A stretch of DNA of 64,000 nt from Mesorhizobium sp. ZC-5 (GTDB lineage: Bacteria; Pseudomonadota; Alphaproteobacteria; Rhizobiales; Rhizobiaceae): the NCBI RefSeq assembly GCF_025753855.1, contig NZ_JAOWPT010000002.1, positions 868,001-932,000 of the forward strand. The letters run 5' to 3'. The position numbers were made by a program, and so were the translations under genes. The notes beneath the pieces are model-generated. The model saw nothing but the letters and a program-made list of their open reading frames with translations. It did not search any database and was not told the origin of the DNA. Below are positions 8,240 through 16,379 of this stretch, one piece after another (the first letter of the stretch is position 1; every line of letters starts with the position of its first letter).

Positions 8240-8398
8240 GCCCCCCTCTGTCCTGCCGGACATCTCCCCCACAAGGGGGGAGATCAGGCTTGCCGCTTTC
8301 GCGGCGCTTCATTTTGCAACGTTTGCGATCAGCGAAAGCCGAGATGATAGCCAATCTCCCCCCTTGTGGGGGAGATGTCCGGCAGGACAGAGGGGGGC
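8240..8398. repeat. RIME-like palindromic repeat, family A copy 1 (between cioA and cioB)
   Basis: A perfect 45-bp inverted repeat (8240-8284 against 8354-8398) encloses a 69-bp centre. Each arm contains its own smaller hairpin (CTCCCCC-ACAA-GGGGGGAG). Two further copies occur at 16118-16274 and 25556-25730. Size, two big palindromes and intergenic position resemble rhizobial RIME elements. Transcribed, the element would form a very stable hairpin inside the cioAB message. Confidence 0.9.
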
Positions 8399-9446: not shown

Positions 9447-9463
9447 CGCCCGCTAAAAGACGA

Positions 9464-9493
9464 TCGGGCGGGAGGCCGAGGCCGCCCGCCCGA
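9464..9493. terminator. GC-rich hairpin between convergent cioB and Cys-rich peptide gene
   Basis: TCGGGCGG (9464-9471) pairs with CCGCCCGA (9486-9493), with an additional inner GGCC/GGCC pairing. No good T-run follows on either strand, so it may be a rho-aided or bidirectional terminator. Confidence 0.4.
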
Positions 9494-9500
9494 GTCCAGC

Positions 9501-9704
9501 TCAGCAGGCGAGTTGATCGCAGGCGATGTGGCACGCCTGCTTGCCGACCGGATCGCCGATTGCCTCGCAGGCAAGATGGCAAAGGGAGCATTCGAGGCCG
9601 CCCGAAGCGGTTACCCTGTTGCTGCCCGACGAATGCGAGCTTGCTCGGCTCACAGGTCCCAGGTTCCGTGTGCTGTTGGTTCTGACAGTCGGTAGAAGTG
9701 ACAT
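9501..9704 (-). CDS. 67-aa cysteine-rich peptide, possible RiPP/bacteriocin-like precursor
   Basis: No family is recognised. The start is well supported: ATG at 9704 has AAAAGGAG 6 bases upstream. Residues 1-38 are polar, rich in Ser, Thr, Asn and Arg, with no Cys and no signal peptide. Residues 39-67 hold six cysteines in the spacing C-x2-C-x3-C-x11-C-x3-C-x4-C and end at Cys. A leader-like half followed by a Cys-rich core is the layout of ribosomally made, modified peptides, and some small metal-binding proteins look alike. It lies 77 bp downstream of a PatG-type maturation protease on the same strand, which strengthens the precursor idea. No cyclodehydratase or radical SAM gene is nearby. 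Confidence 0.7.
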   Translation of the reverse strand: MSLLPTVRTNSTRNLGPVSRASSHSSGSNRVTASGGLECSLCHLACEAIGDPVGKQACHIACDQLAC

Positions 9705-9781
9705 GTTTTCTCCTTTTCCTGTTGCGAGAGCCCCGATCTCTCCACAGAACGCTCTCGCCGACGTTCTGGGTTTGCTGGATG

Positions 9782-10339
9782 TCAGGTCGGACGCTCGTTC
9801 CAGGCGGAAACCTCGCCGATGTTGACCGGTATCGTGTCGCTCACATCGACGGTGAACTGCAGGATCCGCAGTGCGGCATTGATGCCGGAGGCGATGAACA
9901 GCCGGAGACGCACGTCGTAGCATTCCGAGCCGGACCGGCATGCCGCGCTCCTCGTGATTTCGATGTCGTCGAGAAGGAAGTGGGTCAGCGCGATGTGGTT
10001 GAGCGCCTCGAACACGCGGAAGGTCGAGGTGGTGGCGTAGTTGAGCGCCCGGTCGCGCCCGGTGATGCCGAGGTTCCGGTATTTGCGCGTCGCCAGGTTC
10101 CGGAAATCCTCCAGGAAGTCACGCAGCCGTTTTTCGTCGTTCAGGATATCTGTCAGGCGCGCTCTGATTGCCTCGTCGCCTTCAGCGCGTTTCTTGGCCT
10201 CGATGAAGAAATCGTCGATCGCCTTTTTGATGTTCCAAGGCATGATGCCGCGCGCAACCGGAACCAGGATCGGAACGGTCTCTCCCGAGATCAGCTGGAC
10301 ACTCCCGGCGATGTAGCCCGGCACCGCGGTGAGCAGCAC
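9782..10339 (-). CDS. PatG-like protease, C-terminal part (separated by -1 frameshift)
   Basis: This 185-aa frame is the natural continuation of the subtilisin gene upstream. It holds the conserved end of PatG-type proteins: RALNYATTSTFRVFE, then a Cys-containing SAACRSGSECYDV segment, then FTVDVSDTIPVNIGEV near the C-terminus. The GTG at 10339 has no convincing ribosome site, and the same frame continues upstream in homologous Lys-rich sequence to the A-run at 10368-10375. It is therefore read as the second half of a single ~678-aa protein made by -1 frameshifting or slippage, or as the remnant of a broken gene. The GTG-started product would lack the protease. Confidence 0.75.
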   Translation of the reverse strand: MLLTAVPGYIAGSVQLISGETVPILVPVARGIMPWNIKKAIDDFFIEAKKRAEGDEAIRARLTDILNDEKRLRDFLEDFRNLATRKYRNLGITGRDRALNYATTSTFRVFEALNHIALTHFLLDDIEITRSAACRSGSECYDVRLRLFIASGINAALRILQFTVDVSDTIPVNIGEVSAWNERPT

Positions 10340-11817
10340 CCTTTCGGTCTTTTTCTTCTTCCCATCCTTTTTTTTGGTGTCGGCTCTTCAACCGGCTCGA
10401 TGCCGATTTGTCCCGCAAACGCGTTGAGGATGCGCGTGTAGACGTGAGGAGCAAACGCGCCAACCGGCTTCAGCGCGTAGATCGGCGTGCCGTCCAGCTT
10501 CAACACCCAGATGAGCCGCTCGACATCTTCTGCGCCCTCGTTCCGCAGATATTCGATCAGCGCTTCGTCGGTTTCCGGCCAGACCCCTTGGTTGAACTGG
10601 GCGATCGAATCGCGTCGGGTAACCGAGCCGAAATCGTAGCCGATCTGCCCCAGCGCGTAGACCAGTTGAGGTGGACTTGCGGCCGCTTTTTTGGCGCCAC
10701 CGCATCCACAGCCACAGTCCTTCGGGGCTCCGCCGCATCCGCATTTCCCATCCGCGCAGGAAGCCGTTACGTCGCTTTCGGATGTGGACGGCAAGACTTC
10801 CGACAGCCCGATGGCGCGGCCTCGTTCGCCCTCGGGCGGCAATGGAACCCCCTGCGTATCGTCGATTGAAAAGCCTCCTGATGGATGTTCGTTGCCTGAC
10901 AAGGTCATGATTGCTCTCCCTCTATTGCCTGTCTGGTTGGGATAAATGGGTGGGCGCAACGCGACCGGTGCCCGGGGCTGTGCACCTCGCCGGTCACCCC
11001 CGATCACGGTCCCTGCAAGCTTGGCGCGTACGGTCAGCGGGTCGTTCGCCCCGCCATTGGTTCTGCTTGCCTCAAGCGTCCGCGCGGCCACGCCGCTGGT
11101 GATGGCCGTTGCGAAGCTGGTGCCTGTCCGCGCCGCAACCCCACCACCTGGTATGGCGCCAATGATCGCCTCGCCCGGCGCGATCACGCCGTGCATCGCG
11201 TAAGCGAGCCCCCAGTTGCCCGCCGCCAGAGGTTGTCCGTCAAGGCCGATGGCGCCGACAGCAAGTACTGTCGAGACACAGGCGGGCACATGATTGCAGT
11301 CGCAGCCATCATTGCCTGCAGCGGCGATGACGAGGACGCGCCGTTCCTCGCAGGCGGCAAGCGCCTTGGCGAGGTCGGCTTCGGCGGCGCATTCGGTGAC
11401 GAACTGTCCGCCGCTGATATTGATGACATCGGCGCCGTGATCGAGTGCTATCGAGATCGCCCGTGCCAGGTCGAGCTGCGAGCAGGCGAGGCCTTGGCCC
11501 GCGTCCGAGAATATAGGCACGATCAGCCCCCGGCAATTCGGCGCGATGCCGCGCACCGGCCCGCCGGGCTGGCCGAAGATGATGCTGGCGACATGCGTTC
11601 CGTGCGCCAGCGCGCGTCCTTCGCCGATGCTCTGCGCCGCCAGCGTCGGCAGCACGGTCAGGTCGGCGCCCGCGAAGCAGGGATGCGCCTGGTCGACCGG
11701 CCCGTCGAGCACTGCGATGCACACGCGTCGGTCGCCGCCGCCCGGCAGCGCCGTGTCCAAAGTGGCAAGCATTCGGGCCTGGTTCACGCAATCGCCTTCC
11801 AAGCTTGGACGCTGCAT
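10291..11817 (-). CDS. PatG-like S8 subtilisin protease (cyanobactin-maturation type), N-terminal part
   Basis: 508-aa frame with a complete subtilisin domain (~residues 30-265): Asp38 (AVLDGPVD), His72 (AHGTHVAS), oxyanion Asn169 (AAAGND) and Ser234 (GTSFATA). A linker at ~354-374 is packed with Cys and Gly. From ~385 the PatG C-terminal domain starts (LVYALGQIGYDFGS). The conserved part ends at residue 483, at the A8 run; the last 25 residues are out-of-frame basic sequence. There is no signal peptide, so it is cytoplasmic. PatA/PatG-family proteases cut and macrocyclise precursor peptides in cyanobacteria; outside them the role is mostly unknown. A TTGACA/CATTAT promoter lies just upstream, and the Cys-rich peptide gene lies downstream. 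Confidence 0.85.
   Translation of the reverse strand: MQRPSLEGDCVNQARMLATLDTALPGGGDRRVCIAVLDGPVDQAHPCFAGADLTVLPTLAAQSIGEGRALAHGTHVASIIFGQPGGPVRGIAPNCRGLIVPIFSDAGQGLACSQLDLARAISIALDHGADVINISGGQFVTECAAEADLAKALAACEERRVLVIAAAGNDGCDCNHVPACVSTVLAVGAIGLDGQPLAAGNWGLAYAMHGVIAPGEAIIGAIPGGGVAARTGTSFATAITSGVAARTLEASRTNGGANDPLTVRAKLAGTVIGGDRRGAQPRAPVALRPPIYPNQTGNRGRAIMTLSGNEHPSGGFSIDDTQGVPLPPEGERGRAIGLSEVLPSTSESDVTASCADGKCGCGGAPKDCGCGCGGAKKAAASPPQLVYALGQIGYDFGSVTRRDSIAQFNQGVWPETDEALIEYLRNEGAEDVERLIWVLKLDGTPIYALKPVGAFAPHVYTRILNAFAGQIGIEPVEEPTPKKRMGRRKRPKGCCSPRCRATSPGVSS
10368..10375 (-). other. A8 slippery run: -1 frameshift site in PatG-like gene
   Basis: On the coding (minus) strand eight A follow CC. 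In the protease frame the codons read CCA AAA AAA AGG; shifting back one base after the second AAA gives AAG GAT GGG and restores the conserved C-terminal domain. An extra A (nine in total) would do the same. The A AAA AAA heptamer is of the bacterial -1 slippery type. Confidence 0.65.
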
Positions 11818-11839
11818 CAGCGCATGAAGTGGAGCCGCG

Positions 11840-11869
11840 ATAATGTCCCCGAGTTGTATTTGTTGTCAA
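11840..11869 (-). promoter_or_regulatory. sigma-70-type promoter for PatG-like gene
   Basis: On the minus strand TTGACA (11869-11864) and CATTAT (11845-11840) are 18 bases apart. The predicted start would give a leader of about 16 bases before the ATG at 11817. Confidence 0.5.
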
Positions 11870-11903
11870 CTATAGATTGTGTAAAAATGAGCTGAATACA
11901 ACT
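11852..11903. repeat. 9-bp inverted repeat flanking the PatG-like promoter
   Basis: AGTTGTATT (11852-11860) and AATACAACT (11895-11903) are exact reverse complements 34 bases apart. They bracket the -35 hexamer, and a GTTG-x-CAAC palindrome sits at 11862-11870. This is a candidate regulator site. Confidence 0.4.
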
Positions 11904-12270
11904 TAGAGGAGAAACAATCGGTGTGGATGATCCATATCGTCCAGCAACTGCACTGCTTCAATCTTGCCGGAACTGCCCGTGCGCCCCTTATCGTGGCGCT
12001 GGCTGGTCGCATCGCCGGGGTCAGTGAAAATCCGTCGTGGGAAAATGAAAAACGGACGCCGCGTTCCGCCGCCGCCCGGTGTCGTGCATGCGTTTGGTGG
12101 GTTCCGCCCGGCTTCGGGAGGCTGTTCGTTCAATGCGGACAATGAAGGGGAAGGGGGGTAACCGCTCCCTCTCTGGTTATACATATGGCGCACAAGGGAC
12201 TTGCGGCAAGACCCTGCCGCTGCCGTAGAACCGCCGGCCTAAGCTCGAGGCACGGAAAGGAAATCACCAG
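11904..12270. other. intergenic region with no supported gene
   Basis: Divergent spacer between the PatG-like gene and the glycosyltransferase. Open frames of up to 96 codons exist on both strands, but they lack ribosome sites and family features. Only the glycosyltransferase ribosome site (AAAGGAA, ~12257) is recognised. Confidence 0.5.
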
Positions 12271-13509
12271 ATGCGCATAGTGTTGTCGACCTACGGATCC
12301 CGCGGAGACGTCGAGCCGATGGCTGGGCTCGCGGCGGCGTTGCAATCGCTCGGCGCCGAGGCGGTGGTAAGCGCGCCGGCGGATCAGGAATTCGTCGAGC
12401 TGCTGGAGCGCGCCGGCGCGGAACTGGCGCCTTCCTTCATGCCCATTCGCCAGTGGATAAGCGAGAAGGCGAAGCCGTCGGCACCGGCGGACTTTTCCAT
12501 GCTCACGGCCGAAATGATCGCCGCGCAATACGAAGCAATCGGCGCGGCCGCCGGGGGGTGCGATGCGATCGTAGGGACCGGCCTGATGCCGTCCGCCGCC
12601 GCCGCGCAGTGCGTGGCCGAGAAACTGGGCGTCCCCTATTCGCATGCAACCTTCTGTCCGCTGTTCCTGCCGTCGCATCATCACCGGCCGTACCCGTATC
12701 CCGGCCATCCGCTGCCGCCGGAGGTGACCGACCCCCGTGCTTTGTGGGATCTGAACGCCCAACACATGAACGCGCTGTTCGGTGGGGCAGTTAACGCCCA
12801 CCGCGCATCGATCGGATTGCCCGCCGTGGAGAATGTCCGCGACCATGTCTTCACCGATCGTCCCTTGCTGGCGTCGGACCCGGTCCTGTGGCCGTGGGAA
12901 AGGACGGAGCTTTGCGACGCCGTACAGACCGGCGCGTGGATCTTGCCTGACGAACGCCCGCTCCCCGCCGAACTCGAAGCGTTTCTCGAAGCCGGCGCCC
13001 CGCCGGTCTATGTCGGTTTCGGCAGCATCGCCTTGCAGAGCACGAAGGACGCCGCCCGGACGGCGATCGAGGCGATCCGGGCACGGGGGCGCCGCGTGGT
13101 TCTGGCTCGCGGCTGGGTCGACGCGTCCCCGATAGACGACCGGGACGACTGCCTGCTCGTCGGCGAGGTCAACCAGCAGGCGCTGTTTCGCCGGGTTGCC
13201 GCGGTCGTCCACCATGGCGGCGCGGGCACTACGACAACCGCCGCGCGGGCCGGCGCGCCGCAGGTGGTCGTGCCGCAGATCGTGGACCAGCCCTTCTGGG
13301 CGGCGCGCGTGGCCGGCCTCGGCATCGGCGTCGCCCACGACGGTCCGGCGCCGACCTTCGAGTCCCTGTCAGTCGCGTTGAATACGGCGCTGGCGCCCGA
13401 AACCCGCGCGCGGGCGGCCGGCGTGGCCGGCACGATGCGCGCCGACGGGGCAATGGTCGCCGCGAAGTTGCTGATTGATGCGGTCAGCCGGGAGAGGCGG
13501 CTGGGCTAG
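12271..13509 (+). CDS. UGT-like GT1 family glycosyltransferase
   Basis: 412-aa GT-B fold enzyme. The N-terminal acceptor half starts MRIVLSTYGSRGDVEPM. The C-terminal nucleotide-sugar half carries the family signature VHHGGAGTTTTAARAGAPQ (~residues 310-328) followed by DQPFWAARVAGLGIG. It matches the sterol/macrolide/rhamnosyl glycosyltransferase family that adds a sugar from an NDP donor to small hydrophobic acceptors; no acceptor can be named. ATG at 12271 has AAAGGAA about 9 bases upstream. It stands alone; the next gene converges on it. Confidence 0.88.
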   Translation: MRIVLSTYGSRGDVEPMAGLAAALQSLGAEAVVSAPADQEFVELLERAGAELAPSFMPIRQWISEKAKPSAPADFSMLTAEMIAAQYEAIGAAAGGCDAIVGTGLMPSAAAAQCVAEKLGVPYSHATFCPLFLPSHHHRPYPYPGHPLPPEVTDPRALWDLNAQHMNALFGGAVNAHRASIGLPAVENVRDHVFTDRPLLASDPVLWPWERTELCDAVQTGAWILPDERPLPAELEAFLEAGAPPVYVGFGSIALQSTKDAARTAIEAIRARGRRVVLARGWVDASPIDDRDDCLLVGEVNQQALFRRVAAVVHHGGAGTTTTAARAGAPQVVVPQIVDQPFWAARVAGLGIGVAHDGPAPTFESLSVALNTALAPETRARAAGVAGTMRADGAMVAAKLLIDAVSRERRLG

Positions 13510-13527
13510 GCCGGAAAGGCTCTGGCG

Positions 13528-13773
13528 TCAGGCGCTGACGGCCTTGGCTGCCGCGCGCTTCTTCTTGACGGGAGCCGGCTTCGCCGCCTCGGCGGCGCGG
13601 TCGGCTTCGTCCCTGGCGAGCCGCAGCTCGCGCAGTTTTGCGGTCTTCTGCGCCCGCAGCTTCGCTTGGGTCTGGTATTCGGTCATGGCCCGCGCCTTGT
13701 CGGCGTTCTTCTTCTGCGTCTCCAGGAAGCGCGTCTCGGCCTTGTCGATGATGTTCTGTCTGTCGTCAGCCAA
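13528..13773 (-). CDS. small basic coiled-coil protein, conserved in rhizobia
   Basis: 81-aa hydrophilic protein with a TTG start at 13773, chosen because AAGGA lies 10 bases upstream. A much longer upstream frame is antisense to lepA and is ignored. It is a long charged helix (residues ~10-65 rich in K, R, E, A and Q) followed by an Ala/Lys-rich tail (PVKKKRAAAKA) like histone-H1-type tails. Similar short proteins in Mesorhizobium are labelled 'transcriptional regulator', but no HTH is visible. Nucleic-acid binding is plausible, nothing more. Confidence 0.6.
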   Translation of the reverse strand: MADDRQNIIDKAETRFLETQKKNADKARAMTEYQTQAKLRAQKTAKLRELRLARDEADRAAEAAKPAPVKKKRAAAKAVSA

Positions 13774-13959
13774 TTGATCTATTCCTTGTGTTTCAAACGA
13801 AGAATGAAAATGCCATTCCTCTTTAGATAGGCATTTTCGGCCCGAAAGCCAGTTTTGCCCTGTTCGGACCGGCATTCGCCGTCCTCCGTCGGCGTGCGGC
13901 ACCGCAGCCCCGCGCCAAGCCTTGCCGCCGCACGGCCGCCCTGCTAAAGGCCGCGCACC

Positions 13960-16117: not shown

Positions 16118-16274
16118 GCCCCCCTCTGGCCTGCCGGCTATCTCCCCCACAGGTGGGGAGATTGGCTGTCACTAAGGGCGGCGCGCCTTCTGCAAGGTTG
16201 GCGATCGAGCGAAGCCGGCGAAGCGACTGATCTCCCCACCCGTGGGGGAGATGGCCGGCAGGCCAGAGGGGGGC
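16118..16274. repeat. RIME-like palindromic repeat, family A copy 2
   Basis: 45-bp arms 16118-16162 and 16230-16274 are reverse complements with two mismatches, around a 67-bp centre. The arms match the copy between cioA and cioB with a few substitutions (CTGGCCTG instead of CTGTCCTG). Together with families B and C it fills the 610-bp gap after lepA. Confidence 0.9.
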
Positions 16275-16379
16275 GCTGTCCCGCCTCCATCTCCCAATTG
16301 GCCGCCGCTCCCCCTCAAAATCCCCACCTTGCACTCCGCCCCGTCCCCGCTATCCTGCCGCCGGGCACCGGGGGGTCTC

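Follow-up and report, generated by a model that had tools for sequence, protein, structure and literature searches.

Cyanobactin pathways (patellamide-type PatA/PatG, PatE) are the closest described relatives of the system considered here, and some of them lack the YcaO heterocyclase. According to PMC4663559, active clusters always have both A and G proteases, and had until then been identified solely in cyanobacteria. PMC4259220 reports that binding of linear substrates by the domain of unknown function (DUF) of PatA and PatG was not detected, and PMC10885120 gives G(L/V)E(A/P)S as the PatA cleavage consensus. In PMC8776678, Roseomonas oryzae is described as having a cyanobactin peptidase gene together with a likely cyanobactin-like peptide. 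The literature covered (titles and abstract openings, with subscription papers and bioRxiv preprints mostly outside) contained no paper on Cys-rich substrates of lone PatA proteases. A protease of this kind is found in a 64,000 nt stretch of DNA from Mesorhizobium sp. ZC-5 (contig NZ_JAOWPT010000002.1, positions 868,001 to 932,000; hereafter, the window). The minus strand there carries a gene for a subtilisin-like (S8) protease and, downstream of it, a gene for a 67-aa peptide with six Cys (Table 1). The gene pair probably belongs to a branch of the cyanobactin superfamily that has neither YcaO nor PatG, and whose PatA-like peptidase would free disulfide-rich peptides.

What does this system share with the cyanobactin pathways, and where does it depart from them? 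First, it has a PatA-type S8 protease with PatG_D and PatG_C domains. The S8 domain scores 260–264 bits against the PatA structures 4h6w, 4h6v, 3zxx and 3zxy, versus 112–115 bits against those of the PatG macrocyclase (4h6x, 4aks and 4akt). A profile built from six family members gives 381 bits for PatA versus 216 bits for PatG, and 265 bits against the PatG DUF structure 4uvq. The higher PatA scores point to a PatA-type leader peptidase plus the DUF that is common to PatA and PatG. The first-pass annotation of this DNA, made from the sequence letters, had called the protease PatG-type, which has to be revised (264 versus 115 bits); its intact catalytic triad, its Cys/Gly-rich linker and its Cys-rich peptide 77 bp downstream on the same strand are all present as described. 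The superfamily combination of an N-terminal PatA-type protease and a C-terminal DUF is found here, split by a change of reading frame. NCBIfam model TIGR03895 matches the first protease open reading frame (ORF), of 508 aa, at E 3.9e-95, yet below the family cut-off; the genome has four matches to this model, and the three among the matches listed all lie within the protease gene. No PatG-type macrocyclase was found, the genome having a single PatG_C match. Second, a G(V/L/I)xxS-like site occurs in many of the associated peptides, and there are several precursors per locus. Third, the leader motif of some relatives is weakly similar to the cyanobactin precursor models TIGR03678/TIGR04446. Unlike cyanobactin pathways, the system has no second PatG_C gene in the Mesorhizobium genome, no adjoining YcaO gene and no C-terminal recognition tail on the Mesorhizobium peptide (none of the AYDG type follows its Cys residues). 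The cores also differ in being Cys-rich (4–12 Cys, nearly always an even number), and the leader typically measures 26–27 residues up to the site (34 in the Mesorhizobium peptide).

Precursor models contribute little to this comparison. TIGR03678 or TIGR04446 reaches E 0.04–0.11 for three Cys-rich members, with no match for most other Cys-rich members, and E 0.0007–0.04 for members with cassette-type or hydrophobic cores. A canonical-looking ORF at locus L062 reaches 2e-6 on the TIGR models and is the sole one to pass a Pfam cut-off (DUF5837, 9.9e-11). The Mesorhizobium peptide matches none of TIGR03678, TIGR04446, NF042906, DUF5837 and DUF5840. Because the curated models match weakly, it is chiefly the protease, together with the leader and site pattern held in common, that links the system to cyanobactins.

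A further likeness is to lone proteases on cyanobacterial plasmids, in Gloeocapsa PCC 7428 (L163) and Nostoc cf. commune (L166), where a PatA-like gene is followed by a leader-bearing Cys-rich peptide. There is no second protease in the stretch read, and the cores are different from the Mesorhizobium core. Measured against the family profile, the Nostoc protease is missing the central part of the S8 domain. The annotation lists the Nostoc peptide as a hypothetical protein, and the Gloeocapsa peptide has no listed gene in the PLSDB table, which is incomplete. On both plasmids, a gene for a CAP-domain protein lies directly upstream of the PatA-like gene (L163:5296-5886 and L166:5255-5500).

The coupling of protease and peptide is well supported by comparative sequence evidence, namely homologous loci, tests of leader and site, and a codon test. 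The 45 loci compared comprise 28 from a contig-wide scan, eight from the order and 12 from the family, minus three duplicates. The 28 (L054–L078, L081, L086 and L092) were taken forward from the best 80 of at least 422 relatives, the remaining 52 of these 80 matching chiefly across the protease domain. An ORF located at most 5 kb downstream on the same strand, with a leader score of at least 9 and at least four Cys behind the leader, is present at 28 of the 45 loci (27 with a score of at least 17). The first-pass annotation had staked its idea on the peptide being kept beside other such proteases, and the idea survived this test. ORFs scoring at least 17 number 68, in 34 of the 45 loci, near the protease (205 kb of strand) versus two elsewhere (1.31 Mb), a comparison that is partly circular in that the leader matrix was seeded from the same loci. 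Both distant ORFs are cassette-type precursors, those of L065 and L076. Five later loci provided a held-out check, and the leader was present in four: on Cys-rich ORFs in L163 and L166, on hydrophobic cores in L162, and solely on a gene annotated PatB in L165 (Gloeothece). No leader was found in L164 (Acaryochloris). The motif is LPxQxxPVxR in most relatives and PVxR in the Mesorhizobium peptide. In relatives, a single protease is accompanied by one to four Cys-rich precursors whose Cys frameworks differ greatly, which is what a maturation enzyme tolerant of varied substrates would lead one to expect.

The same leader also occurs on cores of another kind. At L057, L058, L071, L073–L075, L077 and L162 it precedes Cys-free or Cys-poor cores that look hydrophobic or amphipathic and may be membrane-active. 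In the canonical cyanobactin cluster of L165, where PatB/PatC accessory genes are annotated, the ORF at 10523-10738, annotated PatB/AcyB/McaB, starts with a precursor-like LPxxxPPVxR leader, and similar leader-starting ORFs stand directly after PatA in L070 and L076. PatB may itself be a substrate.

In many peptides, a candidate cleavage site closes the leader. The strict form, G[VIL]x[PAQ]S, is found in 23 of 76 peptides versus 1.0 in shuffled sequences; a looser form, [VIL]x[PAQS]S, is found in 51 of 76 versus 13.8. Where a Cys-rich peptide has a site, the Cys residues within 45 residues past the leader motif fall almost entirely on one side of the site (8 before, 249 after). The Cys residues are also under selection, as the first-pass annotation had required of its idea. 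Six close pairs or groups were compared, some with mispaired paralogues. For the proteases, the nonsynonymous rate (dN) was 0.018–0.131 versus a synonymous rate (dS) of 0.13–0.63. For the peptides, the nonsynonymous and synonymous proportions (pN and pS) were 0.007 versus 0.56 at Cys codons, 0.110 versus 0.332 at other core codons and 0.155 versus 0.401 in leaders. The two nonsynonymous Cys changes both trace to L134/L135 paralogues that had been mispaired, and sub-types are mixed in one of the L143/L144 pairs; correctly paired close orthologues have no nonsynonymous change at Cys codons. Within core type B (the five equal-length members compared out of 11), Cys positions differ in 0 of 80 comparisons and other positions in 116 of 360; within type C (9 members), the counts are 0 of 288 and 114 of 792. 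An ungapped count for type D, in which 120 of 276 Cys positions differ, is a register artefact that mixes two spacings, and the alignment of the Mesorhizobium peptide with its homologues (see below) is the valid one. Could the peptide ORF have arisen by chance? It is short and has no Pfam or NCBIfam match at E≤1, but its homologues keep invariant Cys beside homologous proteases and the Cys codons of correctly paired orthologues are unchanged in sense. A chance origin is ruled out by this conservation and has a negligible probability.

The number of Cys residues is even in 71 of 72 Cys-rich peptides (nine of them added by hand) and in 24 of 25 sequence-distinct core clusters. The sole odd cluster has one Cys ahead of the likely site. 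This all-count parity is less telling, as a point against the reading proposed here, since the control is dominated by ORFs with exactly four Cys (156 ORFs even, 38 odd); clusters containing a peptide with at least five Cys are therefore the fairer comparison, and 18 of 19 of these are even (hand count) versus 42 of 80 control ORFs (p 0.0005). Even Cys numbers in these sequences suggest disulfides. An alternative is that the peptides are cytoplasmic and bind metal, with no disulfides, the CxxCH and CHxxC of the Mesorhizobium core (CSLCHLAC...CHIAC) serving as ligands. The cytoplasm is reducing, and the locus adjoins cytochrome bd genes, as might suit a metal-binding peptide. However, the His residues are not conserved (L142 has CRIGC and CLLAC), the core types are highly diverse, and a shared insertion site accounts for the cyd neighborhood, so that metal binding is an unlikely alternative to disulfides. 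Heme attachment via CxxCH was considered as well and ruled out, the His being lost in L142.

Could the Cys residues instead become thiazolines, through a full cyanobactin pathway with heterocyclase and macrocyclase acting in trans? The superfamily does turn Cys into azoles, and the Mesorhizobium genome has one YcaO gene, on a different contig (C10, 427-aa frame). Among 20 genomes of the order in which the system occurs, YcaO (PF02624) is on another contig in 10. The other 10, drafts of which one is 89% complete and the others 96–100%, have no match at E≤0.001. YcaO is on the protease contig in none of the 20 (some contigs are short), so the first-pass view of a reduced layout lacking YcaO/PatD holds. 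When the 45 loci were searched with the PatD-like YcaO of L062, only L062 and L070 matched, both of which have a second family protease. Moreover, the Mesorhizobium genome has a single PatG_C match, its peptide has no AYDG-type tail, and azoles would not predict even Cys numbers. Thus, in-trans azole formation is very improbable, less so than a chance ORF but more so than metal binding. An all-against-all comparison of ORFs of at least 100 aa around the loci found no widely shared family other than the protease; LanB and radical SAM enzymes were not searched for.

Several observations weigh against a PatA-like peptidase that frees disulfide-rich peptides from leader-bearing precursors. At 7 of the 45 loci the leader (score at least 15) is restricted to ORFs that are not Cys-rich, and a further 10 have neither a leader nor a Cys-rich leader ORF within 5 kb downstream. 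Among those ten, the Mesorhizobium locus, L064 and L036 have Cys-rich ORFs with leaders that are degenerate by eye, and L065 and L076 have cassette-type precursors upstream. The Mesorhizobium leader lacks LPxQ and scores −8.7 on the leader matrix, and the protease gene next to it is frameshifted. Even the looser site is absent from 25 of the 76 peptides, the strict one being confined to the 23 noted above. The cyanobactin precursor models are weak on Cys-rich relatives (E 0.04 at best in the members scanned, below cut-off). Disulfides would require an oxidizing place, and no recurring transporter emerged from the all-against-all comparison around the loci. Of the initial proposal that the peptide is the substrate or partner of the protease, a pairing beyond chance stands, and processing itself is something we infer.

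How would the Mesorhizobium pair work? The small gene would encode a precursor whose leader carries the family N-terminal motif and a PatA-like VTAS end. This leader would be recognized by the PatA-type S8 protease, together with the C-terminal DUF, and cut after the Ser of VTAS. Cleavage after Ser34 is predicted from the consensus in PMC10885120, the sequence at this site being RVTAS versus the G(L/V)E(A/P)S reported there for PatA. The released core of ~33 residues would then form three disulfides from its six Cys, perhaps as a helical hairpin, with no ring-forming enzyme involved. Alpha-hairpinins have a CxxxC ... CxxxC spacing of Cys. The Mesorhizobium core type has the same spacing and an extra outer Cys pair, a likeness in spacing alone; a PDB sequence search with this peptide type gave a single match, at E 1.9. 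A substrate-tolerant maturation enzyme of this sort could yield a set of bioactive peptides, which may be exported and may have antagonistic or signaling roles. All six Cys lie in the last 29 residues, with none earlier. In an alignment with L137, L139, L055, L064 and L142, every one of the six Cys is invariant, as are Pro17 and Arg20. The pair has the arrangement expected of a locus for ribosomally synthesized and post-translationally modified peptides, a putative leader-and-core precursor adjoining a maturation enzyme.

Table 1. Coordinates of features of the protease–peptide locus (positions in the window)
Feature	Position	Strand	Basis
Precursor-like peptide, 67 aa (P0001)	9501..9704	-	ORF; homologues in L137, L139, L142, L055, L064
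Predicted leader, residues 1-34, PVxR at residues 17-20, VTAS end	9603..9704	-	Alignment and PatA consensus
Predicted core, 33 residues, C-x2-C-x3-C-x11-C-x3-C-x4-C	9504..9602	-	Sequence, alignment
Spacer between peptide start and end of protease region, 77 bp	9705..9781
Remainder of protease gene in a different frame; PatG_C (PF18065) at ~9800-10129	9782..10387	-	Pfam E 2.6e-22
First protease-gene ORF, 508 aa (P0002)	10291..11817	-	ORF list; TIGR03895 3.9e-95
8-A run, reading-frame change	10368..10375	-	Frame comparison
PatG_D domain (PF18047)	10411..10662	-	Pfam match
Cys/Gly-rich linker (CGCGG-type)	10692..10759	-	Alignment; present in relatives too
Subtilisin (S8) domain, PatA-type, triad D38/H72/S234	11017..11730	-	Domain and structure-sequence matches
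Weak promoter-like match, TTGACA-18-CATTAT, sigma-70-like	11840..11869	-	1 found versus 0.5 expected in shuffles
Island between cydB and lepA	9455..13920	.	Precisely absent in same-genus G451

The protease gene is interrupted in the present assembly. The 508-aa ORF contains the S8 domain and most of PatG_D. The first-pass annotation had placed a PatG-type C-terminal domain in the same gene, and PatG_C is indeed there, but in a different frame beyond a run of eight A (8-A run). Past the run, G+C content at third codon positions (GC3) is 0.82 for the new frame, compared with 0.56 if the old one is continued, indicating that the coding frame truly switches in this assembly. In aligned relatives the frame is open at the position of the run. 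The frame change has probably disabled this copy of the protease, with rescue by slippage or an assembly error as the alternatives. The whole locus could then be a decaying pseudogene without present function, which is compatible with a functional system in its relatives. The frame change, a long branch (1.25), the degenerate leader and the failure to find the system in two other genomes of the genus all fit decay. On the other hand, the downstream frame (9782-10387) is stop-free, 55% identical to the L064 protease over 189 aa and of high GC3, and none of the six Cys of the peptide is lost. L064, the sister whose gene is unbroken, likewise combines a long branch (1.19) with a degenerate leader. 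The 8-A run offers a possible −1 slip site, though nothing stands out in the downstream fold (z 0.28). Decay of the Mesorhizobium locus is a serious possibility, held to be slightly less probable than its opposite. A programmed frameshift at the run was considered and is not claimed, given the ordinary downstream fold and the open frame of aligned relatives. The annotation had also assigned one promoter to both genes; there is a weak sigma-70-like match (11869-11840), whose joint service to the two genes is conjectural. Scans of the window for tRNAs and Rfam families gave no matches.

How widespread are such proteases? TIGR03895 matches 231 of 397 genomes of the order at E≤0.001, mostly other subtilisins. 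The family cut-off is passed by seven, and the Mesorhizobium protease stands far above the rest of the remaining matches. PF18065 is present in 14 of 395 family genomes, 2 of 385 in a class sample and 2 of 359 in a phylum sample, the Mesorhizobium genome being included in each of these overlapping samples. The 28 loci of the contig-wide scan come from cyanobacteria, planctomycetes, actinomycetes, alphaproteobacteria, a Thiotrichaceae metagenome-assembled genome (MAG), a clostridial MAG and others. The layout of protease plus Cys-rich peptide itself recurs in cyanobacteria, planctomycetes and the Thiotrichaceae and clostridial MAGs. The initial description of a system in a rhizobium is thus too narrow. 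A profile of the Mesorhizobium peptide type, made from six peptides (the Mesorhizobium peptide and those of L137, L139, L055, L064 and L142), was searched over the 395 family genomes. At E<1e-20 it finds five, exactly its five family source genomes and all among the 14 with PatG_C; this profile was built from loci it matched, which counts against it as support, and the informative part is the absence of strong matches in the 381 family genomes that have no PatG_C. At E≤0.01 it finds 16 genomes, nine with PatG_C and seven without (weak, E 1e-4 to 0.009). The Fisher value for co-occurrence, 2.6e-8, comes from the same profile and is not used as evidence. In a tree, the Mesorhizobium protease pairs with L064 (99/99) inside the Cys-rich group. 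With midpoint rooting, canonical-looking loci fall outside this group at 91/95, under the strict mark. The two sisters have the lowest PatG_C scores in the family survey, 80.6 bits for the Mesorhizobium protease and 82.2 bits for L064, versus 129.6–151.1 bits. Elsewhere among the relatives, the S8 and DUF parts of the protease lie in separate or frame-split neighboring ORFs (L086, L092 and L077). The L037 protease has an internal deletion that joins the S8 part to the PatG_C end, with two Cys-rich ORFs downstream, one of them leaderless.

What are the wider implications? First, cyanobactin-type maturation would extend to a minimal layout of protease and precursor, in rhizobia and in several other phyla. 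Second, the loci point to a set of uncharacterized, probably disulfide-rich peptides. Third, lone systems reduce the problem to protease, DUF and leader, so that the role of the conserved DUF of PatA and PatG becomes testable. A bolder proposal, which we offer tentatively and which may well be wrong, is that lone PatA with Cys-rich precursors forms a widespread, undescribed two-gene class, in which the DUF reads the LPxQxxPVxR leader; the DUF, rather than the heterocyclase, would then define the substrates of the superfamily, PatB included. Leader score correlates with divergence of the DUF (Spearman 0.67, n 38; partial on S8 0.43), and with that of S8 to a similar extent (0.64; partial 0.34), the loci being related to one another.

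The gene pair sits on an island that has cydB on one side and lepA on the other. In G451, a genome of the same genus, the bases matching positions 9454 and 13921 of the window are adjacent in L168, a precise empty site. In G534, of the same genus, the island is absent and other DNA occupies the site. Rhizobial loci are repeatedly flanked by these two genes. Among the other loci, lepA is upstream and divergent in nine and cydB downstream in five, which indicates that the insertion site is old and shared. The island also carries a glycosyltransferase gene (EryCIII-like_C, UDPGT; 12271-13509 on the plus strand), divergent from the protease gene and without a match in the other loci (tblastn, E≤1e-40). 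Short repeats lie between cydA and cydB (~8242-8396) and at 16220-16288, and are found in G534 as well.

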